A stretch of 64,000 nt of DNA from Polaromonas sp. (lineage in GTDB: Bacteria > Pseudomonadota > Gammaproteobacteria > Burkholderiales > Burkholderiaceae_C), in the NCBI RefSeq assembly GCF_013817205.1, contig NZ_JACDDD010000010.1, forward strand, positions 1 to 64,000, given 5' to 3'. Below the pieces are notes generated by a model, which ran no database searches, was not told the DNA's origin, and was given only the letters and a program-made list of their open reading frames with translations. This document shows positions 2,073 through 60,537 of this stretch, one piece after another; position 1 is the stretch's first letter, and the number at the start of each line of letters is the position of its first letter. A program made the position numbers and the translations under genes.

Positions 2073-2130
2073 CAAATCGGGCTCCAGCCCTTGTGCAGCA
2101 AGCGCCAGCAGCTATTGATTCAATAGCGTT
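2073..2130 (+). repeat. Dispersed repeat, copy 1 (intergenic)
   Basis: Member of a ~55-bp family defined in this window. Forward orientation runs TCAAAT, GGCTCCAGCCC, a variable centre with GCGC, AGCAGCTAT, then ATAGC. This copy has all blocks and lies 16 bp after the stop of the DUF336 gene. Confidence 0.85.
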
Positions 2131-2145
2131 CAGCGAGGGCGTGGC

Positions 2146-2553
2146 TTACAGGCCGATGGCTGCCATGCCGGCGCGCGCGATCTGCGCATCTTCGGTGGAC
2201 TTCACGCCGCTGACGCCGACCGCGCCCAGGCACTGGCCGTCCTTCATGATGGGCACGCCGCCTTCGAGCAGGCCCTTGAGCTCGGGCGCGCTCAGGAAGG
2301 ACACGCGGCCGCCATTGATCATCTCTTCATAAATGCGGCTTTCACGGCGTCCGAGCGCGGCGGTGTGAGCCTTGGCCGGCGCGATATGGGCCGAGATCGG
2401 CGCCGCGCCGTCCAGCCGCTGCAGGTGCAGCAGATGGCCGCCATCGTCGACGACGGCAATTGTCACCGCCCAGTTGTTCTTGAGGGCTTCGGCCGTCGCT
2501 GCGGCCGCAATGGCCTGCACGTCGGAAAATTCAAGCACTGCTTTTGATTTCAT
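2146..2553 (-). CDS. Heme-binding/DUF336 (GlcG/HbpS-like) protein
   Basis: About 135 residues from the ATG at 2553. The whole length is a DUF336 (Haem_degrading) domain with AVVDDGGHLLHLQRLDGA near residue 33, a KA.TA segment, and a Gly-rich end (GGVPIMKDGQCLGAVGVSG). The family includes GlcG of glycolate operons and haem-binding HbpS; the role is not settled for most members. An upstream in-frame start would add 14 residues lacking family similarity, so the later ATG is preferred, although its Shine-Dalgarno is weak. It lies near hemP and the tonB operon but on the opposite strand. A haem link is only suggestive. Confidence 0.8.
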   Translation of the reverse strand: MKSKAVLEFSDVQAIAAAATAEALKNNWAVTIAVVDDGGHLLHLQRLDGAAPISAHIAPAKAHTAALGRRESRIYEEMINGGRVSFLSAPELKGLLEGGVPIMKDGQCLGAVGVSGVKSTEDAQIARAGMAAIGL

Positions 2554-2746
2554 GTTTTTTTCGGGGTTGTAGGACAAGAGCGCAAGCATACGCAACTTTG
2601 GCGCTGTCCAAGGGTCACATTACCACCTTAAAACCTGATAGAACCCTCAAAAAAAGTCGGCAGTGCGCAGGGTTAATCCTTGAAATCTGCCGCAGTCCCC
2701 TAAAATGATCTTGCCTGCATATGCTGGCCTCTTGGAGAAGACGCTC

Positions 2747-3436
2747 ATGAATGACAATGTTCAAACCCTTGACCATGGCTACGTTGCCTCTGCCGAGCAG
2801 CGCAACCGGGTTTTGCGCAACACCTACTGGCTGCTGGCCCTGAGCATGCTGCCCACCGTGCTGGGCGCCTGGGTCGGCGTTGCCACGGGCATCACCGCCT
2901 CGCTGACCGGTGGTCTGGGCCTGATCGTGTTCCTGGGCGGCGCCTTCGGCTTTCTTTACGCGATTGAAAAGACCAAGAATTCCGCCGCCGGCGTGCCAGT
3001 GCTGCTGGCTTTCACTTTCTTCATGGGCCTGATGCTGTCGCGCATGATCGGCATGATCCTGGGCTTTCGCAACGGTTCCGAGCTGATCATGACCGCCATG
3101 GGCGGCACGGCTGGCGTGTTCTTCGTGATGGCCTCCCTGGCCAGCGTGATCAAGCGTGACCTGTCAGGCATGGGCAAGTGGCTGTTTGTCGGCGCCATGG
3201 TCGTCATGGTCGGCGGCATCATCAACGTGTTTGTCGGCTCCACCGCCGGCATGCTGGCCCTGTCGGTGGCTGTGATCGGCATCTTCAGCGCCTACATGCT
3301 GTATGACCTCAAACAGATCATGGACGGCGGCGAGACCAACTACATCAGCGCCACCATGCGCCTGTACCTGGACCTGTTCAATGTGTTCCAGGCCCTGCTG
3401 GCCCTGCTGGGCATCATGGGTGGTGAGAAAGATTAA
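2747..3436 (+). CDS. Bax inhibitor-1/YccA family membrane protein
   Basis: 229 residues with about seven hydrophobic segments covering residues ~25-225, as in the BI-1/YccA (UPF0005) family. Bacterial members such as YccA and YbhL are inner-membrane proteins; YccA interacts with the FtsH protease. The conserved Asp-containing C-terminal part is visible (AYMLYDLKQIMDGG, then YLDLFNVFQALLALLG). The ATG at 2747 is chosen because GGAG lies about 10 bp upstream and the preceding in-frame residues are not conserved. The gene is monocistronic and ends in a strong terminator. Confidence 0.88.
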   Translation: MNDNVQTLDHGYVASAEQRNRVLRNTYWLLALSMLPTVLGAWVGVATGITASLTGGLGLIVFLGGAFGFLYAIEKTKNSAAGVPVLLAFTFFMGLMLSRMIGMILGFRNGSELIMTAMGGTAGVFFVMASLASVIKRDLSGMGKWLFVGAMVVMVGGIINVFVGSTAGMLALSVAVIGIFSAYMLYDLKQIMDGGETNYISATMRLYLDLFNVFQALLALLGIMGGEKD

Positions 3437-3460
3437 TTGTCCGCTGCGCTCCAGACGGAA

Positions 3461-3484
3461 AAAAGGGGCCTTTGGCCCCTTTTC
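3461..3484. terminator. Bidirectional intrinsic terminator
   Basis: The stem AAAAGGGGCC/GGCCCCTTTT with a TTT loop is followed by a long T-rich run. It lies between the convergent BI-1 gene and rlmD. Confidence 0.92.
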
Positions 3485-3502
3485 CTTTTCTTTTTCTTTT
3501 TT

Positions 3503-4993
3503 TTAGACGGCGGCCAAATCGAACACGGCGATGGACTCCACATGTGCGGTGTGCGGGAACATGTTGACCACGCCGGCTGAAGTGCAGCGGTAACCCGCAT
3601 CATTGACCAGCACACCGGCATCTCGCGCCAGCGTCGCCGGGTTGCAACTCACGTACACGATGCGTTTTGGCGGCACCCAGTCGCCCCTCTGCAGGTTTTG
3701 CTGCCCACCCGCGTCGTCGCAGGGTACGCCCGTGATGGCCTGCTGGTGCAGCGCGGCCAATGCCTTGAACAGCTCGAACGCACCCTCACGAGGCGGATCG
3801 ACCAGCCATTTGTCGGCCGCGCCGTCCCGCACCAGCATGCCGGGTGTCATCTCGAACAGGTTGCGTGCTACAAATTTGGTAGCTGCCAGCGTCCGTCCTG
3901 CGGGGGCTGAGGCCTGATTTGACAGATAATTTTCACGCGAGCGGGCGACCAGCGCCTCGCTGCCCTCGATGCCCAGCACCTCGCGCGCCTGGGTCGCCAG
4001 CGGCAGGGTGAAGTTGCCCAGCCCGCAAAACCAGTCAATCACGCGTTCGTCACGCTGCACATCGAGCAGGCGCAGCGCGCGCGAGACCAGCACCTGGTTG
4101 ATCTGCGGGTTGACCTGGGTGAAGTCGGTCGGCCGAAACGGCATGGTGATGCCATAAGCCGGCAGCGCATAAGCCAGTTGCTGCGCAGGGTCGCTGACCG
4201 GATCGAGCAGCGTCACCGTATCCGGCCCGCCCGACTGCAGCCACCACTGCAGGCCCGGATGGGCTGCCGCAAAGGCGCGCAGCTTCGCGCGGTCGCCATC
4301 GGACAGCGGCTCCATGTGGCGCAGCACCAGCGCCGTGATGGCGTCGCCGCAGGCCAGCTCGATCTGCGGCAGGGTCTCCTTCGCGTCCATTGCGCCTATC
4401 AGCGCGCGCAGCGGCAGCAGCAGATCGCTGACATGTTTCGGCAACACATGGCATTCGCGAATGTCGGCGACGTAACCGCTTTTGCGCTCATGAAATCCGA
4501 CCAGCACCTCGCCCTTCTTGCGAACAAACCGTACCGACAGACGCGCGCGGTAGCGGTAGTTCCAGGCCGGACCTTCGATGGGCCGCATCACATTTTCTGC
4601 CTTGAGCTTGCCAAGGTGCCAGAGGTTGTCTTCCAGCACACGCTGCTTGACGGCCACCTGCGCTGCCACATGCAGGTGCTGCATCTTGCAGCCGCCGCAG
4701 GCCCCGGTGTGCAGGCCGAAATGCAGGCACTGCGGCCGCACGCGCTGCGAGGATTCACGCAGCAGCGCCATCAGCGTGGCTTTCTCGAACGTGGGTTTCT
4801 TGCGGTAGACGCTGGCGCTGACACGTTCAAACGGGAGTGCGCCGTCGATGAACACCACCTTGCCGTCCTCACGGTGGGCAATGCCCTGGGCCTCGATGTC
4901 GAGCGACTCGACGTTGAGGATGTCGGGCGGATAGTCCACGAGCGGCGTCGCGGGCGCGGATTGTTTCGTTTTGTTCTGTTGTCGTCTGGCCAT
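3503..4993 (-). CDS. rlmD: 23S rRNA (uracil-1939-C5)-methyltransferase RlmD
   Basis: 496 residues, RumA/RlmD family; methylates U1939 of 23S rRNA using SAM. There is a basic N-terminus, then a TRAM RNA-binding domain (about 24-80), then the [4Fe-4S] cysteines (C89, C99, C102 in [14 protein letters not shown]). A Rossmann methyltransferase domain follows, with [12 protein letters not shown] (SAM loop) and [13 protein letters not shown], whose Cys is the catalytic nucleophile. Residues ~358-376, after the [12 protein letters not shown] motif, are encoded by an in-frame copy of the dispersed repeat, which lengthens a loop normally shorter in the family. The reading frame is intact. In Burkholderia this gene follows nlpD-rpoS; here a VOC gene lies between. 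Confidence 0.92.
3867..3922 (-). repeat. Dispersed repeat, copy 2 (inside rlmD)
   Basis: Reverse-orientation copy: GCTACAAATTTGGTAGC hairpin, CCAGCG, GGGGCTGAGGCC, TGATTTGA. It lies in frame within the methyltransferase domain and adds residues without a stop or frameshift. Confidence 0.85.
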
Positions 4994-5054
4994 GCGCCAT
5001 TGTCTCAGGCTGCGTTACCATTTTCGGCAGGCAAAAGACCAGAAGGAATTGACC

Positions 5055-5483
5055 ATGGAACTGCGGATTTGCATCGACGTTGACGACATGGAACGCGCCA
5101 TCACGTTTTACACCCAAGGACTGGGGCTTCGATGCGGCCGGCGTTTCCAGAATGCCTTCACGGAGATTCTGGGCGCCAGCAGCCCCATCGACCTGCTGCT
5201 CAACGAGGCGGGCACGAAGCCGATCACTGGCAACGTGGCCGAGCGCAGTTACCAGCGCCACTGGACCCCGGTGCACCTGGATTTTGTGGTGGAAGACATC
5301 GATGCTGCCGTAGCGCGCCTGCTGGCACACGGCGCCGTGCTGGAAATGCCGGTCTATAAGCGCGCCTGGGGCTGCATCGCCGGCCTGGCCGACCCTTTTG
5401 GCCACGGCATCGACCTGCTGCAGTTCACCGGGCGCGGTTATGACGAACTGCTGCAACCACCGCCAACACTATCAAATCAGTAG
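5055..5483 (+). CDS. VOC/glyoxalase-family protein
   Basis: 142 residues, vicinal-oxygen-chelate fold. A βαβββ unit starts at ELRICIDVDDMERAITFYTQ, and the second half carries HLDFVVEDIDAAVARLLAHG followed by DPFGHGIDLLQF. The family covers glyoxalase I, dioxygenases and resistance proteins, so the substrate is unknown. AAGGA about 8 bp before the ATG at 5055 supports this start. The last four residues (LSNQ) and the stop codon come from a copy of the dispersed repeat, so the original C-terminus was probably different. The gene lies where rpoS is found in related genera. Confidence 0.8.
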   Translation: MELRICIDVDDMERAITFYTQGLGLRCGRRFQNAFTEILGASSPIDLLLNEAGTKPITGNVAERSYQRHWTPVHLDFVVEDIDAAVARLLAHGAVLEMPVYKRAWGCIAGLADPFGHGIDLLQFTGRGYDELLQPPPTLSNQ

Positions 5484-5524
5484 CTATCCGCGCTTGCTGG
5501 ACGGGGGCTGGAGCCTGATTTGAT
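5469..5524 (-). repeat. Dispersed repeat, copy 3 (end of VOC gene)
   Basis: Reverse-orientation copy: TATCAAATCAGTAGCTA, GCGCTTGC, GGGGCTGGAGCCTGATTTGA. It overlaps the last four codons of the VOC gene and provides its TAG stop. Confidence 0.88.
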
Positions 5525-5545
5525 CTTGAAAATGCGCGACCCATC

Positions 5546-5572
5546 AAAAAAGCCCCGCTCGCGGGGCTTTTT
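5546..5572. terminator. Bidirectional intrinsic terminator
   Basis: The stem GCCCCGC/GCGGGGC is flanked by A6 and T5. It lies between the VOC gene and the convergent nlpD. Confidence 0.92.
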
Positions 5573-5588
5573 CATGGAGGGACCGCGC

Positions 5589-6488: not shown

Positions 6489-6595
6489 TGATAGGTTCGC
6501 CTTTTCCAAATGCCATGAGTGACAGGTGTGACGCTTGGCGCCGGTTTGGGTTCAGGACGGCCAGTGTGCGCAATTTACATGTCTGGCACCCGACC

Positions 6596-7435
6596 TCAGC
6601 TTGTTCCCGATTTTAAAGGCACAAAGTGCACCGCCTCCAGAATCGTCTGAGTGACACCCTGCGCGGTCTTGTCCAGCACCACCAGCGCCTGGGCGCCGCC
6701 AGCCCTGCCGGCAATGTGCATCGGCGCGACCAGACGGCCACCGACGGCCAGTTGCTCCACCCAGGCCGGCGGAATCTCCTCGCCGCCCGCCGCCGCAATG
6801 ATGGCCGCATACGGTGCGCCTTTCGCATAACCCGCCATGCCGTCGCCGAACAGCAGGTGCACATTGGCCAGCCTGAAGGCACGCAGGTTCTCGCGCGCCT
6901 TGTCATGCAGGCCGCGCAGGCGCTCGATGCTGTAGACCTCGCTGGCGAGCTGAGCCAGCACCGCCGCCTGGTAGCCGCAGCCGGTGCCTATCTCCAGCAC
7001 CCGGCCCAGTTTGCCGGACGGACTGCCCGCGCCCTGGCGCAGCAGCTCCAGCATGCGGGCCACCACGTTGGGTTTGGAAATCGTCTGGCCCAGGCCAATT
7101 GGCAGGCTGGTGTCCTCGTAGGCCTGGTTGACCAGCGCGGTATCAACAAAACGGTGGCGCTCTACGTGCCCCAACGCGGCCAGCACCTGCGCATCGGCAA
7201 TGCCCTGCGCTGCCAGCTTCTGGACCATGCGGGCGCGCACCGCGCGTGAATCCATGCCGACACCGCTGGAGATCACGGCTTTAGCCGGAAGTTTGAGATC
7301 AAAAAGGCCTGTAGCCCTTTCCGGATGGGCGCGACCAGCTACATTTTTTGTAGCAGACGGGGTGCCGGCGTCAGGCGCCAGACGCACCGGAAAACCCGGG
7401 CGTTGGACGGCGGTGGGTTTTGCCGGCGGCTTCAT
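6596..7435 (-). CDS. pcm: Protein-L-isoaspartate O-methyltransferase
   Basis: 279 residues; uses SAM to methylate isoaspartyl residues for repair of aged proteins. The catalytic core runs from about residue 58 to the end with the SAM motif VLEIGTGCGYQAAVLAQL and the motif AAIIAAAGGEEIPPAWVEQL. The start overlaps the surE stop (ATGA at 7432-7435), indicating translational coupling. The protein carries a ~57-residue N-terminal extension not needed in compact Pcm proteins; residues ~27-47 of it are encoded by a copy of the dispersed repeat. nlpD follows after a ~107-bp gap. Confidence 0.92.
   Translation of the reverse strand: MKPPAKPTAVQRPGFPVRLAPDAGTPSATKNVAGRAHPERATGLFDLKLPAKAVISSGVGMDSRAVRARMVQKLAAQGIADAQVLAALGHVERHRFVDTALVNQAYEDTSLPIGLGQTISKPNVVARMLELLRQGAGSPSGKLGRVLEIGTGCGYQAAVLAQLASEVYSIERLRGLHDKARENLRAFRLANVHLLFGDGMAGYAKGAPYAAIIAAAGGEEIPPAWVEQLAVGGRLVAPMHIAGRAGGAQALVVLDKTAQGVTQTILEAVHFVPLKSGTS
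7297..7355 (+). repeat. Dispersed repeat, copy 4 (inside pcm)
   Basis: Forward copy relative to the plus strand: GATCAAAAAGGCCTGTAGCCC, GGGCGCG, CCAGCTACA..TTTTGTAGCAGA. It is in frame within the N-terminal extension of pcm. Confidence 0.83.
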
Positions 7436-8238: not shown

Positions 8239-8346
8239 GCAGCGATTTTACGGTCTCAAGGGTGACAAAGCCGGCCCCCCGCGCGGCCTATTTGCCTTTG
8301 CAAGCTCTCTATGATGTGTTCACCTGACCTCAACGGAGACCCCCTC

Positions 8347-9321: not shown

Positions 9322-9444
9322 GCGGTGGCACGCGCTGCGGCGCGTCGGCAGCACTCAGCGGGGCCAAAGCTATCAGCGAGGGAAACATCTGCTTACGCAC
9401 ACATCTTTTAGGTATATATTGAAAATTCCTACAAGGGGCGGCTC

Positions 9445-9885: not shown

Positions 9886-9906
9886 GCGCCAGCCGCAAGC
9901 GGCCAC

Positions 9907-9934
9907 AAAAAAAGCCCCTCGCAAGGGGCTTTTT
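9907..9934. terminator. Bidirectional intrinsic terminator
   Basis: The stem GCCCCT/AGGGGC is flanked by A7 and T5. It serves the response regulator and, on the other strand, tRNA-His. Confidence 0.92.
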
Positions 9935-19279: not shown

Positions 19280-20392
19280 ATGAATCGCAGCCGGCAGTGG
19301 GACATATTTTGCAAAGTGATCGACAACCATGGCGACATCGGTGTCTGCTGGCGGCTCAGCGCCGACCTCGCTGCGCGCGGCCAGCAGGTGCGGCTGTGGG
19401 TCGATGATGCCTCGGCGCTCGAATGGATGGCGCCCGACCGGCATGCGGGCGTCACCGTGCTGCCGTGGCTGGAGCCGCTGGGCCTGAACCTGCTGCGCCT
19501 GGACAGCGCGCCCTGCGAGGTGCTGGTGGAAGCCTTCGGTTGTGAGGTTGCTCCTGAATTCATAGCTGCTTGCGCAGACCAGCAAAGGGCTGGAGCCCAA
19601 ATTCCCGTATGGATCAACCTCGAATACCTGTCCGCCGAGCCTTATGTGGAGCGTTGCCACGGCCTGCCCTCGCCAGTGCAACACGGTGCTGCCGCCGGCT
19701 GGACCAAATGGTTTTTTTACCCGGGGTTGACGGCGGCCACCGGCGGCCTGCTGCGCGAACAAGACCTGGTGCAGCGGCAGGCTGCCTTCGGCCGGAAGGC
19801 CTGGCTGCAAGCGCAGGATATTGATGGGTCGGGCGTCAAACTGGTCAGCCTGTTCTGTTATGAGCCCCCTGCACTGACCAGGCTGCTGCACCAGTTTGCG
19901 CGCGAGGGATTGGCCGGCGAGCCGGTTCGCCTGCTGGTGGCGGCCGGCCGAGGCGCCGCGGCGATCAAGGCCGTGTTGATGAATGAAAATGGGCTTCAAC
20001 CCTTGATGGACAAGCGCAAGCTGCTATCAATTTCATATCTGCCCCTGCTGGCCCAGACCGATTTCGACCATCTGCTGTGGGCCTGCGACCTGAACTTCGT
20101 GCGCGGCGAGGACTCGGTGGTACGTGCGCTCTGGGCCGGCAAGCCCTTTGTCTGGCAGATTTACCCGCAGGATGACCAGGCGCATCAAGCCAAGCTGCAG
20201 GCTTTTCTGGACAGCTTGAACGCGCCGCCCTCACTGCGCGCTTTTCACCTGGCCTGGAACGGCCAGAGGCCTGATCTGCCGGCCATGGACTCTCAAGCCT
20301 GGTCCGAGTGTGTCCGCACAGCGCGGCAGGAGCTGCTGGGCCAGCCCGACCTGGGCAGCCAGCTGCTCGGGTTTGTGGCAAAAAAAAGCTAA
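19280..20392 (+). CDS. earP: EF-P arginine rhamnosyltransferase EarP
   Basis: 370 residues. EarP transfers rhamnose from dTDP-rhamnose to Arg32 of elongation factor P. The N-terminal [19 protein letters not shown] holds the conserved DN.GD.GV motif with the catalytic Asp, and [20 protein letters not shown] and [19 protein letters not shown] are further family blocks (the latter binds the nucleotide sugar). efp follows immediately, which fixes the assignment. Two copies of the dispersed repeat lie in frame, encoding residues ~93-109 and ~236-253, in opposite orientations. The frame stays open, so the protein is probably functional with two enlarged loops. Confidence 0.93.
19556..19604 (-). repeat. 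Dispersed repeat, copy 5 (inside earP)
   Basis: Reverse-orientation copy: CATAGCTGCTTGCGC, AAGGGCTGGAGCCCAAATT. In frame within earP; only one arm of the GCTA/TAGC hairpin is left. Confidence 0.85.
19986..20038 (+). repeat. Dispersed repeat, copy 6 (inside earP)
   Basis: Forward copy: AAAATGGGCTTCAACCCTTG, AAGCGCAAGCTGCTATCAATTT. In frame within earP, ~380 bp from copy 5 and in the opposite orientation. Confidence 0.83.
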
Positions 20393-25336: not shown

Positions 25337-25395
25337 GATCAAATCAGGCTCCAGCCCCCGTCCTTCGGGCGTGATCAGCTATCAAATCAGTAGCA
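25337..25395 (+). repeat. Dispersed repeat, copy 7 (intergenic)
   Basis: One of the best copies: GATCAAATCAGGCTCCAGCC, CCCGTCCTTCGGGCGTGATC, then AGCTATCAAATCAGTAGCA. It lies between the MFS start and the rmuC stop and overlaps neither. Confidence 0.92.
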
Positions 25396-25402
25396 TCTCG
25401 AA

Positions 25403-30939: not shown

Positions 30940-31036
30940 GATTGCTCTTTCAAAATGTGAGTTAGTTGCGCGGTTGCGCGAACCCCTGACTTTACCCGCT
31001 AGAGCCCACCTACCGGCTAGCGTTGGTTTTCCATAC

Positions 31037-31205
31037 AAGCCGGGGCCGCGGTTCCGGCTCCGCCGGGCCGCAGGCTGCGGCTCCGAGCCCGCCTGCGCGG
31101 GCTTGGACAGCCTTCAGATACGCCGCCTCTGGCGGCGTGGCGCCCTGCAAGGGCAGCGCCCTCATGGGCGGCAGCGCAGCACAGGCAAGGCAAGCGTGGG
31201 GGCTA
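31037..31205 (-). repeat. GC-rich palindromic intergenic element, copy A
   Basis: About 170 bp of clustered short hairpins (CCCGCC..GCGGGC, GCCGCC..GGCGGC, GCCCTGCAAGGGC) ending at GCGTGGGGGCT. Read on the minus strand it starts AGCCCCCACG and contains G+C hairpins like the element at 36411, so the two look like members of one family. It fills most of the gap between the FKBP and nitroreductase genes. Confidence 0.6.
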
Positions 31206-34293: not shown

Positions 34294-34299
34294 TGGTCA

Positions 34300-34354
34300 T
34301 TTTGGCCTCTGGCCCCCGTCCCGAATGCGTCACCAGCTATCAAAAACGTAGCAT
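34300..34354 (+). repeat. Dispersed repeat, copy 8 (3' of patatin gene)
   Basis: Forward copy: TTTTGGCCTCTGGCCCCCGT, CCGAATGCGTCACC, AGCTATCAAAAACGTAGCA. It ends exactly at the patatin stop codon, with which it abuts. Confidence 0.85.
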
Positions 34355-35322
34355 CAACGGGTCTGCAGCGTGGCCAGCCGGGCACGCAGGGCTGGCAGTG
34401 CGGCGAGCATGGCGGCGCGCCCCGCATCCATGGCGCGCTGGCGCGCCGAGAAGTCCGCACTTTTGAGGCCAAGCTGCGAAGGCTGCACCAGCACATCCGC
34501 GTCCTTGAGCTCATAATGGTTGATGCTTTTGCCCATGATGGCAAAGGTCTGCAGCAGGATCTGCAAGGTGCCATCGGCCGGGTTGGCCTCGGGCGGAGCC
34601 GAGATGTCCACGGCAATCACCAGGTCGGCGCCCATCTGCCGCGCAAAACGCACCGGCACCGGCGAGACCAGGCCGCCATCCACATATTCGCGGCCATTGA
34701 TCTTCACGGGTACAAACACCGCCGGCACGGAACTGGACGCACGCACCGCCGTGCCGGTGTCGCCACGCTGGAACAGCATGGCCTGCCCACTATGGAGGTC
34801 GGTGGCGACTATGCCCAGCGGGATCGCCATGTTTTCCATCCGCCGCCCTGCCACCAGCCCGTTCACGTAGCGGGCCAACGCTTCGCCGCGAAGCATGCCG
34901 CGCCCGAAGATGGGCAGCATCCAGTCGGTGATGGCTACCTCCTCCATGGTCAACGCCGTCTGCTGCAGTTGTGCAGAGGTTTGGCCACTGGCATACAACG
35001 CGGCAACCAGGCTGCCGGCCGAGGTGCCGACCACCAGCGAGGGCTTGAGGCCGGCTTCTTCCAGTGCGGCAATCACACCGACATGCGCGAACCCGCGCGC
35101 CGCGCCGCCACCCAGCGCCAGGCCGATTTTGACCGGCTTGGCCGAGGCCACAGGGGCCGCCGGGGGCACGCCAGTTCCGGTTGTCGCACACCCGCCCAGC
35201 AGCAGCACGGTTGTTGTCCCCAGCGCGGCCAGCACCGCACGGCAGAGCACCGCTGCCGCAAGCCATGCCCTCGCCGCCCCACAGGTCTTGCGATTGAGAT
35301 CAATTCTTGTTTGTATTAACAT
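34354..35322 (-). CDS. Patatin-like phospholipase lipoprotein (RssA-type)
   Basis: About 322 residues. A signal peptide ends in a lipobox (LLLGGC). The patatin domain follows: LALGGGAARGFAHVGVI (oxyanion hole), GTSAG (nucleophile Ser) and YVDGGLVSPVP (catalytic Asp). Hydrolysis of phospholipid acyl esters is expected, probably in the periplasm because of the lipoprotein signal. An in-frame start at 35337 is possible. It is divergent from fbpA with only ~32 bp between them. The stop abuts a dispersed-repeat copy. Confidence 0.87.
   Translation of the reverse strand: MLIQTRIDLNRKTCGAARAWLAAAVLCRAVLAALGTTTVLLLGGCATTGTGVPPAAPVASAKPVKIGLALGGGAARGFAHVGVIAALEEAGLKPSLVVGTSAGSLVAALYASGQTSAQLQQTALTMEEVAITDWMLPIFGRGMLRGEALARYVNGLVAGRRMENMAIPLGIVATDLHSGQAMLFQRGDTGTAVRASSSVPAVFVPVKINGREYVDGGLVSPVPVRFARQMGADLVIAVDISAPPEANPADGTLQILLQTFAIMGKSINHYELKDADVLVQPSQLGLKSADFSARQRAMDAGRAAMLAALPALRARLATLQTR
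35293..35311. promoter_or_regulatory. Candidate Fur box before fbpA
   Basis: ATTGAGATCAATTCTTGTT matches 14 of 18 fixed positions of the variant Fur pattern AATGAGAATNATTCTCATT. It lies ~44 bp before the fbpA start, within the first codons of the divergent patatin gene. Confidence 0.5.
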
Positions 35323-36410: not shown

Positions 36411-36500
36411 AGCCCCCACGTTCGCTCGCTGCGCGTAGCTCTCTGCCCCCCAAGGGGGCGCTGCGCCTGCGGGCCGGCGGAGCCGAACCCGCGGCGCCTG
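36411..36500 (+). repeat. GC-rich palindromic intergenic element, copy B
   Basis: It starts AGCCCCCACG and contains GCTCGCTGCGC, CCCCCCAAGGGGGC and CGGGCCGGCGGAGCC. The same ordered set recurs between genes in many Comamonadaceae genomes. It follows the fbpA stop directly. Copy A at 31037 is the reverse-orientation relative. Confidence 0.7.
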
Positions 36501-36523
36501 TTTGAAAGGGCATCCGCCTATCG

Positions 36524-40378: not shown

Positions 40379-40383
40379 GAGCA

Positions 40384-40438
40384 AAAAACGACTTGCGCCC
40401 ATATTCCACGGGCGCAAGTAGCTACATTTTTAATAGCA
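40384..40438 (+). repeat. Dispersed repeat, copy 9 (3' of ggt)
   Basis: Forward copy: AAAACGACTTGCGCCC, CACGGGCGCAAGTAGCTACA, TTTTTAATAGCAGATCAA. It starts 6 bp after the ggt stop. Confidence 0.85.
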
Positions 40439-40444
40439 GATCAA

Positions 40445-41545: not shown

Positions 41546-41606
41546 AAGTAAAAAGTGGTCTGCGCCCTTTACCGACTGGCGCATGCAGCTACCATTTTTA
41601 TAGCTT
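41546..41606 (+). repeat. Dispersed repeat, copy 10 (intergenic)
   Basis: Forward copy with divergent left end: TGGTCTGCGCCC, GACTGGCGCATGC, AGCTACCATTTTTATAGCT. It lies just after the Crp/Fnr pseudogene and abuts a different palindromic element. Confidence 0.82.
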
Positions 41607-41607
41607 T

Positions 41608-41697
41608 TTTGTCATTGCGGACTTGATCCGCAATCCACGCCGGCATATGCGCGAGAGTAGTTGATGCACGTGGATCCCGGATCAAGAATGGAATGAC
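41608..41697. repeat. ~90-bp palindromic element (REP-like)
   Basis: GTCATTGCGGACTTGATCCG at the left and its partner ATTCTTGATCCGGGATCCAC-type sequence at the right form a long imperfect inverted repeat around a ~25-nt centre. Elements with the frame pattern of TCATTGC..GATCCGCAATCC..GGATCCCGGATCAAG..GAATGAC are widespread in proteobacteria. This copy lies in the gap between the pseudogene and yihY. Confidence 0.75.
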
Positions 41698-42620: not shown

Positions 42621-42635
42621 TTTTTAACAATAAAA

Positions 42636-42690
42636 AACTGCCTCAAACCCTTATTGCACGGGCGCCAGCAGCTATATTTATCATAGCAAA
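42636..42690 (+). repeat. Dispersed repeat, copy 11 (between yihY and acyl-CoA synthetase gene)
   Basis: Forward copy: ACTGCCTCAAACCCTTATTG, CACGGGCGCCAGC, AGCTATATTTATCATAGCAA. It lies 26 bp from the acyl-CoA synthetase stop. Confidence 0.85.
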
Positions 42691-42715
42691 TATACCTGCC
42701 ACAGACGCCCTGGCA

Positions 42716-44497: not shown

Positions 44498-46459
44498 GTG
44501 ACCATTCCCCAATCATTCATCCAGGAGCTGCTGGCGCGCGCTGACGTGGTGGACATTGTCGGGCGTTATGTGCAGCTCAAAAAAGGCGGCGCCAACTTCA
44601 TGGGGCTGTGCCCCTTCCACGGCGAAAAATCGCCCTCTTTCAGTGTCAGCCCGTCGAAGCAGTTTTACCACTGCTTTGGCTGCGGTAAAAACGGCAATGC
44701 CATCAGCTTTTTGATGGAGCACGGCGGCATGACTTTCGTCGAAGCCGTGAAGGACCTGGCCCAGCAGTATGGCCTGCAGGTGCCCGAAGACGACGTCTCG
44801 CCGCAGGAGCGCGCCCGCGCCGCCAAGCAACGCGAGCAGCAGTCGACATTGACCACCGTGCTGGAAAAAGCTGGTATGGCCTACATCAAACATTTGCGGG
44901 CGACGCCGCGGGCCATCGACTACCTCAAGGGCCGCGGCCTGTCGGGCGAAATCGCGAAAACCTTCGGCCTGGGCTACGCCCCCGAAGGCTGGCGCGCGCT
45001 GGCCAGCGTCTTCCCTGACTACAACGACCCGCTGCTGGTCGAAAGCGGCCTGGTCATCACCGGCGAGCCAGGCGAGGAAAACGCGCAAAGCGAAACCAAG
45101 CGTTACGACCGCTTCCGCGACCGCATCATGTTCCCTATCCGCAACGTCAAGGGCGAATGCATAGGGTTTGGCGGTCGGGTACTGGGCGACGAAAAGCCCA
45201 AGTACCTGAACTCGCCCGAAACCCCGGTGTTCAGCAAAGGTCGCGAGCTCTACGGCCTGTTCGAGGCGCGCAGCGCCCTGCGTGAACATGGCTACGCGCT
45301 GGTCACCGAGGGCTACATGGACGTGGTGGCGCTGGCCCAGCTTGGTTTTGCCAACGCGGTGGCCACCCTGGGCACGGCCTGCACCAGCGACCATGTGCAA
45401 AAGCTGTTCCGCTTCACCGATGCGGTGGTCTTCAGCTTCGACGGCGATGGCGCCGGCCGGCGCGCCGCGCGCAAGGCGCTCGACGCGGCCCTGCCCTTTG
45501 CCAGCGACGTGCGCAGCGTCAAGTTTTTGTTCCTGCCGGCGGAGCACGACCCCGACAGTTTCATCCGCGCCAACGGCCAGGACGGTTTTGCCGCTGCGGT
45601 GGCCAAAGCGGTGCCGCTGAGCAAGTTCATGCTGGAGGCCGCTGGCGAGGGCTGCGAGTTGGACACCGCTGAGGGCCGCGCCCACATGGCCAGCAACGCG
45701 CGCCCGCTGTGGAGCCTGCTGCCCGACGGCACGCTCAAACGCCAGTTGCTGGCCGAGATCGCCGACCAGGTGCTGATCGACAGCCGCGAGCTGCTGCAGA
45801 TCTGGCAGCCGGCAAACGCGCGGGACTATAAAAACAATAGCAGCTTGCGCCCATCCGGCAAGAGCCAGAGGCCAAAAACACCCGAAATATCGACTTCCAT
45901 GTCGTATGAAGAGGCGTTTTCCGGCAACTTTTCCGACCTGCATGACGAGGGTGCTTATGCCGCCTCGCTGCCCATGGTTGCCAGCCCGTCCGGCCGCAGC
46001 TTTGCCGCCAAAGGTGGCAGCACCCGGCCAGTCCGGCGCATCGCCGGCCGCGTTCTGCCCGCCAGCCGCGAGGACCGGGTGCTGCGCCTGATGCTGACCG
46101 ACCCGCAGAGCTGGGAAAAGCTCAGCGGCGAGGAGCATGCGCTGCTGTGCGAGCTGCCGGCGCCGCACGGCCCGCTGTTTGTCTGGCTGGAAAGCCAACT
46201 GCATGAACACGGCCCGCAGCCCTGGGCGGCGTTGCGCGAGGGCTTGCGCGAGCACCCGCACGAGAAGCACGCGATCGACCAGATCGCCCAGCTCCTCGAG
46301 GGCATTGAGTGCGACTGGGACGAGGTGCGCGCCATTCTGGACCAATTGCTCAAGCTCAAGCGCCAGCAGGACATGGTCGATTTGCTGCCCCATGTCATGA
46401 CCGACCCGGCCGCGCGCCAGCGGTACGAAGAACTCTCGGCCTTGCTGAAAAAAAGCTGA
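44498..46459 (+). CDS. dnaG: DNA primase
   Basis: 653 residues from a GTG at 44498. It synthesises RNA primers for replication. The N-terminal CHC2 zinc ribbon is complete (C38-P-F-H41, C59, C62). The TOPRIM core has TEGYMDVVALAQLGFANAVA and FSFDGDGAGRRAARKALDAA (metal-binding acidic residues). The C-terminal ~150 residues form the DnaB-binding domain. Residues ~443-461 in the linker between the core and this domain are encoded by an in-frame copy of the dispersed repeat. The gene lies upstream of rpoD in the usual macromolecular-synthesis order; rpsU is not in the window. Confidence 0.94.
   Translation: MTIPQSFIQELLARADVVDIVGRYVQLKKGGANFMGLCPFHGEKSPSFSVSPSKQFYHCFGCGKNGNAISFLMEHGGMTFVEAVKDLAQQYGLQVPEDDVSPQERARAAKQREQQSTLTTVLEKAGMAYIKHLRATPRAIDYLKGRGLSGEIAKTFGLGYAPEGWRALASVFPDYNDPLLVESGLVITGEPGEENAQSETKRYDRFRDRIMFPIRNVKGECIGFGGRVLGDEKPKYLNSPETPVFSKGRELYGLFEARSALREHGYALVTEGYMDVVALAQLGFANAVATLGTACTSDHVQKLFRFTDAVVFSFDGDGAGRRAARKALDAALPFASDVRSVKFLFLPAEHDPDSFIRANGQDGFAAAVAKAVPLSKFMLEAAGEGCELDTAEGRAHMASNARPLWSLLPDGTLKRQLLAEIADQVLIDSRELLQIWQPANARDYKNNSSLRPSGKSQRPKTPEISTSMSYEEAFSGNFSDLHDEGAYAASLPMVASPSGRSFAAKGGSTRPVRRIAGRVLPASREDRVLRLMLTDPQSWEKLSGEEHALLCELPAPHGPLFVWLESQLHEHGPQPWAALREGLREHPHEKHAIDQIAQLLEGIECDWDEVRAILDQLLKLKRQQDMVDLLPHVMTDPAARQRYEELSALLKKS
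45824..45879 (-). repeat. Dispersed repeat, copy 12 (inside dnaG)
   Basis: Reverse-orientation copy: ACTATAAAAACAATAGC, AGCTTGCGCCCATCC, GCCAGAGGCC. It is in frame in the interdomain linker of primase. Confidence 0.85.
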
Positions 46460-49217: not shown

Positions 49218-49236
49218 CATGGGCGAAGTTACAAGC

Positions 49237-49295
49237 ATTTTTGGCCTGCAGCCCTTGTCTGGATTGCATGAGCAGCTATTATTACGATAGCAAAT
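49237..49295 (+). repeat. Dispersed repeat, copy 13 (end of aldo/keto reductase gene)
   Basis: Forward copy: TTTTTGGCCTGCAGCCCTTG, GGATTGCATGAGC, AGCTATTATTACGATAGCAA. It covers the last four codons and stop of the aldo/keto reductase gene on the other strand. Confidence 0.87.
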
Positions 49296-50313
49296 CACGC
49301 CTGCGGTTGCAGACGTCAAATTCCTCGGTATCCACTTCGCTGGCGCTCTGGGCGCTGTAGCGCTGGCCGGTCACCGTCTGCTGGTTGATCAAGGCCTCGA
49401 GCTTCGCCAGCAACCCGACATCCAGCTGTACTTCCACCGCGCCCAGATCGTCCTGCAGATGCACCACACTGGTGGTGCCGGGAATCGGCACGATGTGCGG
49501 TGCCTTGTGCAGCAGCCAGGCCAGCGCCAGTTGCGCCGGCGTACACCCGGCCTCCAGCGCCAGGGCCCTGTACGGCGGCAGCAGCTGGAGATTGGCGGCG
49601 TAGTTGTCGGCGGCAAAACGCGGCATGGCAGCGCGGATGTCTTTGGCCTGCAAGGTGCTGACATCGTGCAGCGCGTCGCACAGAAAGCCGCGCGCCACCG
49701 GGCTGAAGGCGACAAAAGCGGCGCCGATCTCGCGGCAGGCATCCAGCACCGCGATCTCGGGGTTGCGGGTCCACAGCGAATACTCGGTCTGCACCGCGGC
49801 AATGGGGTGCACTGCATGGGCCTTGTGCAAGGTCGCTGCCGATACCTCGGACAAACCAATGCTGCGCACCTTGCCCTCACGTACCAACTCAGCCATGGCC
49901 CCCACGCTGTCTTCAATCGGCACCTTTTTATCCCAGCGGTGCAGGTAATACAGGTCGATCACATCTGTCTGCAGGCGCTTCAAGCTGTCTTCGCAGTTTT
50001 TGCGAACGGTCTCGGGCCGGCCGTCGATGACACGTTTGATACCGTCGTCAAACTGCACACCTGCCATGCCGCCCTTGCTGGCCAGCGTGAAACGGCTGCG
50101 GTGTTTGGACAAGACCTTGCCCACCAGGGTTTCGTTGGCGCCAAAGCCATACAGCGCCGCCGTGTCGAACAGGGTGACGCCGGCATCGAGCGCCGCCAGC
50201 AGCACACGTTCGCCCTGCTCTGCCGTGGGTGGCGTGCCGTAAGCATGGCTCAGGTTCATGCAACCCAGGCCTATGGCTGAAACGTTGAATCGGCCTATGG
50301 TTCGCTCTTGCAT
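49282..50313 (-). CDS. Aldo/keto reductase
   Basis: 343 residues, (βα)8-barrel. The start has GRFNVSAIGLGCMNLSHAYG; the catalytic Asp/Tyr are in LFDTAALYGFGANETLVGKV, the Lys in FTLASKGGM, and the His in YYLHRWD. The C-terminal NADPH-binding block is VPIPGTTSVVHLQDDLGAVE. The group includes YajO/YhdN-like oxidoreductases acting on aldehydes or ketones. The last four residues (DLLS) and the TAA stop are supplied by a dispersed-repeat copy. ATG at 50313 is chosen. The next gene upstream is on the same strand, 10 bp away. Confidence 0.88.
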   Translation of the reverse strand: MQERTIGRFNVSAIGLGCMNLSHAYGTPPTAEQGERVLLAALDAGVTLFDTAALYGFGANETLVGKVLSKHRSRFTLASKGGMAGVQFDDGIKRVIDGRPETVRKNCEDSLKRLQTDVIDLYYLHRWDKKVPIEDSVGAMAELVREGKVRSIGLSEVSAATLHKAHAVHPIAAVQTEYSLWTRNPEIAVLDACREIGAAFVAFSPVARGFLCDALHDVSTLQAKDIRAAMPRFAADNYAANLQLLPPYRALALEAGCTPAQLALAWLLHKAPHIVPIPGTTSVVHLQDDLGAVEVQLDVGLLAKLEALINQQTVTGQRYSAQSASEVDTEEFDVCNRRRDLLS

Positions 50314-52713: not shown

Positions 52714-54026
<1,313 letters not shown>

Positions 54027-54028
54027 GG

Positions 54029-54955: not shown

Positions 54956-54975
54956 GGTCAGAGTCAGTCCGTATG

Positions 54976-55659: not shown

Positions 55660-55660
55660 G

Positions 55661-56695: not shown

Positions 56696-56718
56696 GCTTG
56701 CTCCTGTATTTTCATTTT

Positions 56719-57432
56719 TCAGGCCGGGTCCATGCCCTGGCGCTTTTTGGCTTGGTCGGCCTGCTTTGATGTCATGTGGTCCAGCATGGCGCGCACGCTC
56801 TCGCTGTGCGGAGAGCCGGCCACCACACTGCGGTGTATGCCAGCCGAAAAAGTGGCGAGGATCTGGATGGCTGGCGGCAGCGGGCCAACCAGCGTGATGC
56901 CTTCGACGTGCAACAACTCGCTGAGCTGCTGAAATCCCAGCGCCACCTCGCCACGCGCCACCATTGTGCCGACCGGCACGCCAGGCGGCGCCTGCACCAT
57001 GCGGCCTGCCATCTCGCTGGTGATGCCCCAGCGCTCAAACAATCTGGCCAGCGCAACGCCGCTGGGCCCGGTCGAATAACTGACGCTGGTCGCGACCAAC
57101 ACGGCGCGTTTCACCGCGTCTTCCGAGCTGATATCGGGCACCGGCTCACCGGCACGCACCGCCACGGCAACGCCGGAGCGCACCAGATCGCGCCTGCTGC
57201 CGACCTGCAAATGACCTGCCGCAATCAGTTTGTCGATGGCGTCAGAGGCAAGCACCACCACATCGAATGTTTCGCCGGCCTGCACACGTTTGGCAGCATC
57301 CACACCGCCCACCGCTTCTATCGCTACCGTGCAACCGGACTGCTGCTCAAAGGCAGACACCAGTTCGACCAGCACCTGGCGGGTGGCCATGGAAGAGATG
57401 CCCTTGATGATTGCGGGTGCCGTGTTTGCCAT
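56719..57432 (-). CDS. ModA-like substrate-binding-domain protein without a signal peptide
   Basis: 237 residues of periplasmic-binding-protein type II fold, similar in pattern to ModA/sulfate-binding domains: VLVELVSAFEQQSGCTVAIE at the start, SGVAVAVRAGEPVPDISSED, and FQQLSELLHVEGITLVGPLP. The N-terminus MANTAPAIIKGISSMATRQV is not a signal peptide, and no permease or ATPase is present, so a cytoplasmic role is indicated. It is the promoter-proximal gene of the lig operon, 23 bp before ligJ, in the slot where Comamonas has pmdU/pmdK. No tautomerase (LigU/GalD-type) is found. Function unknown; sensing or handling a pathway acid is conceivable. Confidence 0.75.
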   Translation of the reverse strand: MANTAPAIIKGISSMATRQVLVELVSAFEQQSGCTVAIEAVGGVDAAKRVQAGETFDVVVLASDAIDKLIAAGHLQVGSRRDLVRSGVAVAVRAGEPVPDISSEDAVKRAVLVATSVSYSTGPSGVALARLFERWGITSEMAGRMVQAPPGVPVGTMVARGEVALGFQQLSELLHVEGITLVGPLPPAIQILATFSAGIHRSVVAGSPHSESVRAMLDHMTSKQADQAKKRQGMDPA

Positions 57433-57488
57433 GGCCTCATTCTGGTGGCTTCCGCGCGCCAGACAAAGGCCTTGCCCCGACTATCAGG

Positions 57489-57505
57489 TATGCCAGTTGG
57501 GCATA
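57489..57505. promoter_or_regulatory. LysR-type operator upstream of the lig operon
   Basis: TATGCC-AGTTG-GGCATA is a perfect 6-bp inverted repeat with the T-N11-A spacing of LysR sites. It lies between the divergent ModA-like and LysR genes. Confidence 0.75.
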
Positions 57506-57537
57506 ATTAAACAAAGGTTATCTAAAAAGACAAAACC

Positions 57538-58467
57538 ATGGACCTCAAACAACTCGAGTACTTTGTGCGGGTGGCCGAACTCGGCAGCTTCACACGCGCC
57601 TCCATTGCGCTGGACATTGCCCAGCCAGCGCTGAGCCGCCAGGTTCGCCTGCTGGAAGTCGAGTTGCGGCAAAACCTGCTGACCCGCACTGGACGCGGCG
57701 CGATACCGACCGAAGCCGGCAAGCTGCTGCTCAAACACGGGCGCGGCATATTGCACCAGGTGGAAGTGGCGCGCGAAGAACTGGCTGCCGTGCGCGGCGG
57801 GCTGGCGGGGCGGGTGTCCATCGGCCTGCCGCCCAGCCTGTCCAAACTCATCACCGTGCCATTGACGCAGGCCTTCAGGCAGCACCTGCCGCTGGCGCAA
57901 CTGACACTGACCGAGGGCTTTTCGGTGTTGATGCAAGAAGGCCTGCGTGTCGGCAACCTCGACATGGCCGTGCTTTACAACTCGGAACGCTCACCCGAGC
58001 TGGAAACCATCACACTGCATTCGGAAGAACTGGTGCTGATTTCACGCAGGGACAGCGTCAAGCCGTCCACCAAAAAAACCGGCACAGGCAAGCGCCAGCC
58101 CATCAGCCTGGTCGAAGTCGCCGCCCTGCCCCTTATCCTGCCGAGCCGCCCCAATGCCTTCCGCATTCTGGTCGAAGGCGAAATGATCACGATTGGCTGC
58201 AAGCCGCAAATCACACTCGAGGTGGACGGCCTGAACGCCATCCTGAGTCTGGTGCGTGAGGGCATGGGCCATGCGGTGCTGCCCAGCTACACGCTGAGCA
58301 ACGTGGAAGACCCGGCCCCCTTTACCCTGCGCAGCATTCGCTCACCGCGCATCATGAGTGAACTGATGCTGGTGCGTTCTGCCCGCCGCGCCAGCACCGA
58401 CACGCAAAAAATGGCGGTTGAAGTGGTGACCTCGGTGGTGGTTGACACGCTCAAGCCCTACGCCTAA
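57538..58467 (+). CDS. LysR-type regulator of the protocatechuate operon (PmdR-like)
   Basis: 309 residues. N-terminal winged HTH (~1-60: GSFTRASIALDIAQPALSRQ, VRLLEVELRQNLLTRTGRGA) and a co-inducer domain from ~90 (GRVSIGLPPSLSKLITVPLT). It is divergent from the lig operon across a 105-bp gap with a perfect T-N11-A palindrome. Activation by protocatechuate or a ring-cleavage product is expected from known regulators of these operons. It is convergent with the DUF1932 gene (15-bp gap). Confidence 0.9.
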   Translation: MDLKQLEYFVRVAELGSFTRASIALDIAQPALSRQVRLLEVELRQNLLTRTGRGAIPTEAGKLLLKHGRGILHQVEVAREELAAVRGGLAGRVSIGLPPSLSKLITVPLTQAFRQHLPLAQLTLTEGFSVLMQEGLRVGNLDMAVLYNSERSPELETITLHSEELVLISRRDSVKPSTKKTGTGKRQPISLVEVAALPLILPSRPNAFRILVEGEMITIGCKPQITLEVDGLNAILSLVREGMGHAVLPSYTLSNVEDPAPFTLRSIRSPRIMSELMLVRSARRASTDTQKMAVEVVTSVVVDTLKPYA

Positions 58468-58482
58468 CACCGCGGCCGGCTG

Positions 58483-59388
58483 TTACGGCAGTTTGGGTGT
58501 GGCAGCCAGCAAGCGATCCGCATAGTCCTGCCAGCGCGCGTCTTTGCCAATACCGCTGAACAGGCCCTGCTTGGCCTGATCGGCCACCCACTGCTGCTTG
58601 CCGGCAATGGCTGAAGCCATGAAGGGCTCAAAGCCCGGCCCGGCCTCATGCATGGTGTGGGCCGCCTCGCGCATTTCCTCGGCCCGGCGCTGGCCGTGCT
58701 GCACCACGCGGCTGAAAAAATAAGCGCCCTGCTTGTCCCAGTCAATGCTGGGAAAGGTTTCGGCCAGCGTCGGCAGTACAAAATCTTCCACGCCGTAGGC
58801 GCGTGCGGTGGTGTAACTCTCGATCACCAGCGCCTCCAGGCCCTTGATCATCACGCTGCGGCACATCTTGATAGCGCTGGCCACGCCGACCTGCTCGCTG
58901 ACAGCCTTCGCATTCATGCCCCACTCCGTCAGCACGGCAGCCAGTTCGGCCCCGCGTGCGCCGCCCAGCAGCATGGGCACCTTGATGCCATAGGGCGGCA
59001 CCGAGGTCATCACCCCAGCCTCGATATAGTGGGCATCCGCAGCGGCTATCAGCGCCGCCGCCTGCTGCTTGGTGCCCGGCGAGGCCGAGTTGAGGTCCAG
59101 AAAAATCGCGCCCGGCCGGATGTGCGCTGCAGCCGCCTGTGCCACCGCCAGGGTCCTGGACGCCGTCACGGCGGAAATGATCAGGTCGGAACGCCTGCAC
59201 AGCTCCGCCATGGAACTGCATGCATGCACACCCGCCTGCGCCGCATGGGCCATCGGCTCGCCGCGCAGTGCCGCCGTTTCGAATTGGATGTCCCATGTGC
59301 TGGCGCCCGCCAAGCGGTCCTTCAAGCCGGCCGTGAATATCCGGCCAACCTCGCCGTAGCCAACCATGCCCAGGTGTTCAAACTTCAC
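58483..59388 (-). CDS. NAD(P)-binding DUF1932 oxidoreductase
   Basis: 301 residues. The N-terminal Rossmann domain (LGMVGYGEVGRIFTAGLKDR) resembles 6-phosphogluconate/β-hydroxyacid dehydrogenases; the C-terminal half is DUF1932 (IKMCRSVMIKGLEALVIESY, TTARAYGVEDFVLPTLAETF). The conserved Lys in IKMCRS is a likely catalytic residue. A role in handling a 2-hydroxy acid from the aromatic pathway is possible but not shown. It is 32 bp from the Bug gene upstream and cotranscribed with it. Confidence 0.8.
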   Translation of the reverse strand: MKFEHLGMVGYGEVGRIFTAGLKDRLAGASTWDIQFETAALRGEPMAHAAQAGVHACSSMAELCRRSDLIISAVTASRTLAVAQAAAAHIRPGAIFLDLNSASPGTKQQAAALIAAADAHYIEAGVMTSVPPYGIKVPMLLGGARGAELAAVLTEWGMNAKAVSEQVGVASAIKMCRSVMIKGLEALVIESYTTARAYGVEDFVLPTLAETFPSIDWDKQGAYFFSRVVQHGQRRAEEMREAAHTMHEAGPGFEPFMASAIAGKQQWVADQAKQGLFSGIGKDARWQDYADRLLAATPKLP

Positions 59389-59420
59389 GACGGACGCTCC
59401 TATAGGAACCGGTTTGTAAC

Positions 59421-60401
59421 TTATTGCGCGGGGATTCTCGCGCGGACAATCACCTCGCCCCAGCGCTTTGTTTCGCCAGCCAGCAGCTCCGCCGCCTGCT
59501 CGGGCGAGCTGGCACGGGCCTCGACGTTCAGGTCGGCCAGCTTCTTTTTGACATCCGGCGAGTTGAGCACAGCGGTGATGTCCTTGTTGAGCCGGGCGAT
59601 CACGTCTTTGGGAGTTTTGGCCGGCGCGGCCAGCGCGTTCCAGCTGGACGCCACAAATGCCGGCAAGCCGCTTTCCTTCGCGGTGGGCACATCCGGCAGC
59701 ACGGCAGCGCGTTTTTCGCCGGTGACTGCGAGCGCACGCAGGGTGTTGGCCTTGATCTGCGGCAGCACCGGGCCCAGGATTTCCAGCGCAGCATCGATCT
59801 GCCCGCCGCGCAAAGCGGTGATCACCGCCGGCGTACCGTTGAAGGGAACAATCTGCATGTCCACACGCGCACTGGTCTTGAACAGCTCGGCCGCCAGATT
59901 TTGTGTGCTGCCGACGTTGATGCTGCCGAGGTTGAGCTTGCCGGGGTTGGCTTTGGCAAAGGCCAGCAGTTCGCCCAGGTTTTTGAACTTCGAGTCGGCC
60001 GGCGTGATGATGGCAATATCAAAAAAGCCCAGCGTGGACACCGGCGCAAAATCGCGGACGGTGTCAAAGGGCAAGGACTTGAACAGGCCCGCGCTGACTG
60101 CCGTGCCGTTGGACATCAGCAGCAGCGTATGGCCGTCCGGCTCGGCCTTGGCAACCGCGTCACCGGCCACCACGCCCCCGGCGCCCGGCTTGTTTTCGAT
60201 CACCACCGCCTGGCCGAGCGACTCACCGAGTTTTTGTGCCACCGTCCGGGCGGTGAGGTCGGCCACGCCACCGGCGCCAAAAGGCACGACAATCCTGACG
60301 GGTTTGGACGGGAAGTTTTGCGCGCTGGCCGAAGAGGCCAGGAGCAAAAAGGCCACCAGGCCGGGGGCAAGGGGGCCGGAGGCAAGGCGTAGAAAAGTCA
60401 T
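59421..60401 (-). CDS. Bug-family (TctC-like) periplasmic solute-binding protein
   Basis: 326 residues. A signal peptide ends near SSASAQ. The tripartite tricarboxylate receptor pattern follows: FPSKPVRIVVPFGAGGVADL, then LGQAVVIENKPGAGGVVAGD and KAEPDGHTLLLMSNGTAVSA. These proteins bind carboxylates for TctAB or act as sensors; no TctA/TctB is nearby, as is usual for Bug genes. Next to the lig regulator it may bind protocatechuate or a related acid. Promoter likely lies in the repeat-containing gap upstream. Confidence 0.9.
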   Translation of the reverse strand: MTFLRLASGPLAPGLVAFLLLASSASAQNFPSKPVRIVVPFGAGGVADLTARTVAQKLGESLGQAVVIENKPGAGGVVAGDAVAKAEPDGHTLLLMSNGTAVSAGLFKSLPFDTVRDFAPVSTLGFFDIAIITPADSKFKNLGELLAFAKANPGKLNLGSINVGSTQNLAAELFKTSARVDMQIVPFNGTPAVITALRGGQIDAALEILGPVLPQIKANTLRALAVTGEKRAAVLPDVPTAKESGLPAFVASSWNALAAPAKTPKDVIARLNKDITAVLNSPDVKKKLADLNVEARASSPEQAAELLAGETKRWGEVIVRARIPAQ

Positions 60402-60482
60402 GGCGGTGTCTCCTGTTTGGTGTTCCTGATACCGGGCATCCGTCCACGGCGGGGGCCGGATGCAGTTAAAAATGAAGAGAGA

Positions 60483-60537
60483 AACCGGCTCCAGCCCCCG
60501 TCAGTATTGCGTGAGTAGCTACAAATTCAATAGCATA
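60483..60537 (+). repeat. Dispersed repeat, copy 14 (intergenic)
   Basis: Forward copy, well preserved: AACCGGCTCCAGCCCCCGTC, AGTATTGCGTGAGT, AGCTACAAATTCAATAGCA. It lies upstream of the Bug gene. Confidence 0.9.

Follow-up and report, generated by a model that had tools for sequence, protein, structure and literature searches.

Fourteen copies of one ~66 bp site are dispersed through a 64 kb stretch of DNA (64,000 nucleotides; hereafter the window) from a member of the genus Polaromonas, and the site recurs throughout that genome and the genomes of many relatives in the Comamonadaceae. It seems to have been built and kept in place, within genes and between them, not pasted in, and its reader is very probably a trans-acting protein or complex that takes it as double-stranded DNA and senses both sequence and shape, with constraint or drive acting site by site. 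Is it then a new kind of genome-wide site, with about 60 bits in 66 bp, a near-constant one per 5–6 kb, made and maintained in place, read as shaped double-stranded DNA by a predicted machine, retained or lost by clades as a whole set, and serving either as one more DNA-uptake code, unrelated to the others, or as a chromosome organiser? We regard that question as evenly balanced. An earlier note on the window had claimed 14 dispersed copies lying in both orientations, and all are there, ten on the + strand and four on the − strand, aligning gap-free over 63 columns (14 of 14). Run over the window, the profile built from them recovers just those 14 copies, each at E 1.5e-10 or lower; the next match, at E 0.00095, is part of the copy at 49241 in reverse-strand reading. 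The ~55 bp then assigned to the repeat was too short, as the conserved stretch includes an A/T tract lying 8–11 bp before the start assumed for it.

Conservation runs from that A/T tract, at −7 to −4, through column 58, and the parts keep a fixed spacing: an A-tract (columns 4–7), a GGC-like block (10–12), GCCC or GCGC (17–20), GCGC (32–35) and GCTA-N9-TAGC (41–57). Information per site, for copies selected by the profile, is 58.0 bits in the window's own genome (G000; other G numbers are compared genomes and L numbers DNA stretches), 65.9 in G014 and 68.7 in G147. Indels occur in 2 of the 301 sites of five genomes and in none of the 79 G000 matches. The GCTA-N-TAGC pair in G000 strongly favours one spacing, with 50 occurrences at spacer 9 and 0–3 at each other spacer from 4 to 16; in G147 and G014 there is a lesser second peak at spacer 16 (13 and 7 occurrences). 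The A/T tracts gave weak, mixed peaks for a 10.5-bp period, and none is claimed.

The number of copies is not that of chance. In a 447.5 kb sample of G000, which includes the window, 79 matches reach at least 15 bits, and one set of order-1 Markov shuffled sequence gives none at 10 bits or more; a profile search of the whole genome returned at least 150 candidates, the scored ones all at E 2.6e-9 or lower. Five element-bearing genomes from two genera (G000, G014, G019, G024 and G147; 1.67 Mb in total, cut-off at least 12 bits) hold 301 sites, one per 5.05–6.32 kb, and by extrapolation the own genome holds about 660. For distribution counts a pooled model, R2, was used instead of R1, the profile trained on the own genome, which under-counted other dialects. 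The suggestion that the element belongs to the Comamonadaceae has held up: R2 matches occur in 132 of 398 genomes of that family, from 53 of 115 genera, with at least 12 matches in 93 of the 132 and fewer in 39, 15 of which have a single match. A class-wide draw with R2 gave 2 positive genomes in 377, both Comamonadaceae, so that within it the site was found only there. Carriers among the matches listed (80 of at least 118 stretches) include Polaromonas, Rhodoferax, Acidovorax, Simplicispira, Giesbergeria, Diaphorobacter, Ramlibacter, Ottowia, Paenacidovorax, Paracidovorax, Xylophilus, Variovorax and Curvibacter, and several of the listed rows bear higher-rank names only. Within the own genus the distribution over 25 genomes is bimodal, 17 having from 72 to at least 150 matches and 8 having 0–10; 240 kb of one of its compared genomes, G013, contain no site at all. 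On an rpoD tree of 20 of the 25, the six element-poor genomes form two clades (G005/G009/G018 and G007/G013/G022), requiring 2 changes vs 5.3 with shuffled labels.

Copies corresponding to those of the window stand at orthologous places in G017 (9 of 12 with synteny, a further one being weak), G004 (12 of 14 rows, of which two share one site), G014 (7 of 9), G019 (6 of 10, and one weak) and G024 (5 of 10), and at none of 7 in G013. Many sites are thus shared between species and some are missing; the sharing at orthologous sites that the earlier note had set against its own proposal is largely what is seen. Shared sites have changed unevenly. Between G000 and G017 (9 sites) letters differ at 14 of 207 strong-column positions and 87 of 216 weak-column ones, and between G000 and G004 (12 sites) at 36 of 276 and 144 of 288; the small sets agree, with strong-column differences of 3/46 (G014), 14/69 (G024) and 10/46 (G019). 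Lineages, moreover, have dialects, which differ at the centre of the site. At column 19 C is present in 76 of 79 copies in G000 and 61 of 71 in G014, and G in 45 of 60 in G147, 13 of 14 in G019 and 16 of 18 in G024. Both of the sites within the EarP gene have at this column the letter of their own genome's dialect in the species where the site was recovered, so that coherence within genomes is evident both from the bulk of copies and from these two orthologous places. Such a pattern is one of concerted change in place, as expected if a trans-acting reader drifts. (G043 was dropped as an element-free EarP comparator, since by R2 it bears the site.)

Had copies been inserted into genes, the host proteins should have gained 19–22 residues. 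None of the eight aligned in-gene sites does so. These eight are the ones with a usable host-protein alignment among 33 called in-gene sites in G000 (PurL copy 2, L034 and L032 were left out for want of one), and length differences were taken from the printed alignments. The LpxB site and that in the beta subunit of methylcrotonyl-CoA carboxylase align with solved relatives without a gap over the whole site, each with a length change of 0; the two EarP sites change by +4 and 0 residues relative to relatives, the three of PutA by +1, −2 and +7, and the one in PurL by +11. DnaG is uninformative on insertion as its linker varies. In coding DNA, then, the site overlies homologous residues, and the length gain at filled sites that marks miniature inverted-repeat transposable elements (MITEs) is not seen at these eight, the intergenic sites not being decisive. 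With the orthologous sharing, and with plasmids nearly free of the site, this leaves the proposed 'mobile or amplified element' unsupported, and a mobile element spreading by insertion was rejected. The accompanying assertion that it is neither an insertion sequence nor a classical repetitive extragenic palindromic (REP) sequence was correct. REPs are associated with RAYTs (REP-associated tyrosine transposases), of the Y1 type, and a RAYT-driven REP was rejected in its turn, as the Y1 transposase gene does not track the site: the own RAYT locus is without a copy, and Y1_Tnp is also present in G005, G007 and G013, which are without the site, G012 being an exception with its two weak copies. The own genome has a single RAYT-like Y1 transposase gene (L115), beside an open reading frame (ORF) which in translation reads as glutamate-synthase-like; in G012 (L119) the two weak copies are upstream of one Y1 gene and inverted. 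A more elaborate proposal is that an ancient MITE- or REP-like element spread early in the family by copying or moving and then stayed, while the host proteins were cut down again to their former length. Its attraction is that 58–69 bits with a near absence of partial sites are more easily had by copying than by stepwise growth, and that 20 of 25 genomes have a Y1 transposase gene, with the G012 arrangement in addition. We nevertheless consider it unlikely, in view of the gap-free LpxB and carboxylase sites, the lack of a 19–22 residue gain at any of the eight, the near-free plasmids, and the 3.3 kb own-genome transposase locus without a copy, the gene being found in site-free genomes also.

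At what level is the site read, RNA or DNA? The earlier note had placed the copies mainly just after stop codons or in loops of proteins. Five of the 14 fall within ORFs: two in that of EarP, one each in those of DnaG and a tRNA-U5-methyltransferase-like gene, and one in a PCMT ORF ahead of its Pfam domain. The rest are intergenic. The simple ORF caller used for gene placement put just three of the 14 inside genes and got the strand of the EarP region wrong, which makes counts from it approximate; by it 33 of 76 G000 copies are in genes vs 90% of DNA called coding, and 15 of 48 and 16 of 63 in two other genomes. Copies outside genes are at a median distance from 3′ ends of 17 bp in G000, 1 in G147 and 31 in G014, and those of G000 at a median of 104 bp from gene starts. 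Of the 42 flanked copies of G000 classed as intergenic or overlapping, 14 lie between convergent genes, vs 12.6% of intergenic length. This placement just after stop codons, the convergent enrichment, and two inverted repeats in which 80.3% of cells are paired, vs 21–44% when slid, are what one would expect of an element that acts once transcribed, as an RNA hairpin, a terminator or an mRNA stabiliser. However, copies point either way with respect to the gene upstream (9/21, 13/25 and 14/20), many copies are in genes on either strand, and the paired columns show no covariation above shuffles, in 484 of 500 of which the score was reached. The consensus of 71 copies folds at −0.54 kcal/mol, and an Rfam scan of the window found two tRNAs only, with no match at the sites. 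An RNA role is accordingly very improbable; the RNA hairpin reading was ruled against by the lack of covariation and the near-zero consensus fold. The inverted repeat that had been noticed as a GCTAT/ATAGC hairpin is real, as GCTA-N9-TAGC, but a hairpin as its working form lacks the support of covariation, as does the compensatory pairing of REPs and of REPINs (their hairpin-forming doublets). What the columns do reveal is local. Within genomes the strongest links are between neighbouring columns. A weak link of columns 22 and 53 in G147 is within the range of permutation maxima, and the few longer-range links on pooling genomes (19–31, 21–30) are put down to dialects. In a set of 242 copies the tracts consist of AA or TT, and TA, where listed, stands at 0.0–0.4 of expectation; from such swaps, with avoidance of TA, we infer a shape readout of double-stranded DNA.

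As to the mechanism, the most likely one, favoured tentatively at somewhat below an even chance, is an uptake-like DNA tag under molecular drive. A DNA-importing complex would prefer fragments bearing the site, and recombination of such fragments would spread site-bearing alleles. Sites would gather where they do least harm, just after genes and in tolerant protein segments; they would be rare on plasmids and would shift dialect together as the receptor drifts. The reader protein and its function are predicted. The traits counted for an uptake-like tag match features given for uptake sequences in the excerpts of four papers (PMC7811141, PMC1939737, PMC3630211, PMC7371117). Hundreds of chromosomal copies are present, and dialects are coherent within genomes. 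The strands of neighbouring sites in the five genomes show no bias (36/69, 38/69, 44/92, 17/38 and 7/18). Acquired DNA is poor in sites, with four in the 1.31 Mb of four Comamonadaceae plasmids, three of them on pPNAP01 of strain CJ2, a count that comes without the chromosomes of two of the four hosts (JS666 and T118).

Several points weigh against an uptake-like tag. Copies occur also on a Comamonas plasmid and in integron cassettes. The column test above took in site-scoring pairs only, with lost or weak sites excluded and columns set on G000, and so leans to constraint. The 58–69 bits per site exceed by far what a tag needs; the core of the DNA uptake sequence (DUS) of Neisseriaceae and of the uptake signal sequence (USS) of Pasteurellaceae is roughly 10–12 bases. 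Site density is below that of DUS, described as one per 400–1100 bp in the excerpts seen. Uptake sequences have graded mismatch forms in excess (PMC1939737, in the part available), whereas here, in G000 and G147, half-sites that stand apart from full ones do not rise above background, and a small right-half excess is shown by G014 alone. (In G014, stretches L148–L167 and L329–L332, it amounts to ~12–25 per Mb vs 0–8 in G013.) Stepwise growth via half-sites was rejected for this near-background level of partial sites, which counts against a simple drive model. ComP_DUS pilins (PF16732) occur in 32 of 33 genomes, site-bearing and site-free alike, and so single out no receptor; ComP_DUS as a discriminating receptor found no support here.

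Could the host have selected each copy for its own ends? An intracellular bending or looping protein binding every ~5–6 kb, with host-level selection keeping each site, would make this a chromosome-architecture site, which is the close rival, possible though on balance doubtful. That the five genomes, from two genera, are much alike in density would suit it, as would the shape-like readout, the near absence on the tested plasmids and the high information, which suggests several bound subunits. Sites are spaced more evenly than by chance in G147 (P 0.0005) and G019 (P 0.049), but at random in the other three of the five (G000, G014, G024), and the lack of the set from two sister clades means that the site is dispensable.

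Of the individual copies in the window, four intergenic or ORF-borne ones near its start have orthologous copies in both G017 and G004: 2071..2133 (+, intergenic), 3861..3923 (−, in the tRNA-U5-methyltransferase-like ORF, 3503–4993 −), 5462..5524 (−, intergenic) and 7298..7360 (+, in the PCMT ORF, 6596–7435 −). The EarP domain has one without insertion at 19544..19606 (−), with copies in G017, G004, G014, G019 and G024 and none in G013, and a second, also without insertion, at 19983..20045 (+), present in G004, G014, G019 and G024, weak in G017 (13 bits) and absent from G013. The intergenic copy at 25338..25400 (+) has a counterpart in G017 and was not found in G004, G014, G019, G024 or G013; that at 34296..34358 (+), also intergenic, is shared with G017, G004, G014 and G024, is weak in G019 (14 bits) and has none in G013. 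Directly 3′ of the gamma-glutamyltranspeptidase gene is 40381..40443 (+), with copies in G017, G004, G019 and G024; a single G004 copy serves both for it and for the intergenic 41548..41610 (+). Intergenic 42631..42693 (+) has copies in G004 and G014 and is missing in G017, which here is without ~85 bp, site included, a likely deletion. The copy at 45819..45881 (−) is in the primase linker of dnaG and is shared with G017, G004 and G014; intergenic 49235..49297 (+), after rpoD, is shared with G014 and G019, and with G004 by a pairing on the downstream flank alone. The last, 60478..60540 (+, intergenic), has a copy in G004 by one flank.

Plasmids of Escherichia, of Agrobacterium and of an uncultured host have class 1 integron cassettes with the site, at L348:2484-2536 and 3686-3741, at L349:2488-2538, and six times ~319 bp apart in L350 (2349-3996), a 319-bp tandem array. 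Where checked, the cassette site encodes the N-terminal part of DUF1010 (PF06231), and the Pfam family is therefore partly the translation of a DNA site. An MmeI-like restriction-modification gene contains a strong copy (47.8 bits) at L044:15822-15879, which means that the site can occur in recently mobile genes too. It marks Comamonadaceae DNA, as the cassettes on other bacteria's plasmids illustrate. If the proposed reading is true, the reader protein could be found by presence and absence across clades, and one could test by what route complex sites come to number in the hundreds with no insertion.

Was it seen before? In the open-licence literature of PubMed Central (subscription literature is outside this scope) the site itself was not recognised as described. 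Table 7 of PMC5217627, however, has for P. naphthalenivorans CJ2 a motif pair, ATAGCT(N)22CAAAAG, with 125 copies, 101 intergenic and 18 in genes. It is the reverse complement of columns 45–40 and 17–12 in the G019/G024 dialect, and in the part of that paper available is entered just as a pair of potential novel motifs, with neither its extent nor a mechanism given. It is probably a prior sighting of the site; of CJ2, plasmid pPNAP01 was what was searched here. Another short repeat, BRE, is reported in Polaromonas, Delftia, Rhodoferax and Acidovorax in the excerpt of PMC3110155, but by its description there it is set apart, being ~90 bp long and ~69% GC, arranged in tandem, with no more than 29 copies in a genome. 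A GC-rich inverted pair in the window (31031–31075 and 36465–36509; 45 nt, 82% complementary) is perhaps a BRE-like repeat. With REPs and REPINs and their RAYTs (the subject of PMC2817692) the site shares being short, dispersed, palindrome-bearing and mostly outside genes; it differs in not flanking the Y1 transposase gene of the own genome, in having no sign of insertion and in its lack of covariation. DUS and USS, going by the portions of PMC3630211, PMC7811141, PMC1939737 and PMC7371117 available, resemble the site in having hundreds to thousands of chromosomal copies, no strand bias, a preference for DNA that is non-coding or codes for tolerant segments, few copies where DNA has been acquired, dialects by lineage, and rigid A/T tracts beside a core. 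As one of their traits, the graded mismatch forms, is lacking, the site is not filed with them; it differs also in its ~66 bp, its 58–69 bits, its two inverted repeats, its one per 5–6 kb and its almost complete want of partial forms. Genomes tagged throughout with uptake sequences are described, in the excerpts seen, for Pasteurellaceae and Neisseriaceae, and the Comamonadaceae, themselves a large family of environmental bacteria, would add to these a tag of far greater length, borne by most members of one genus and missing from two of its clades.

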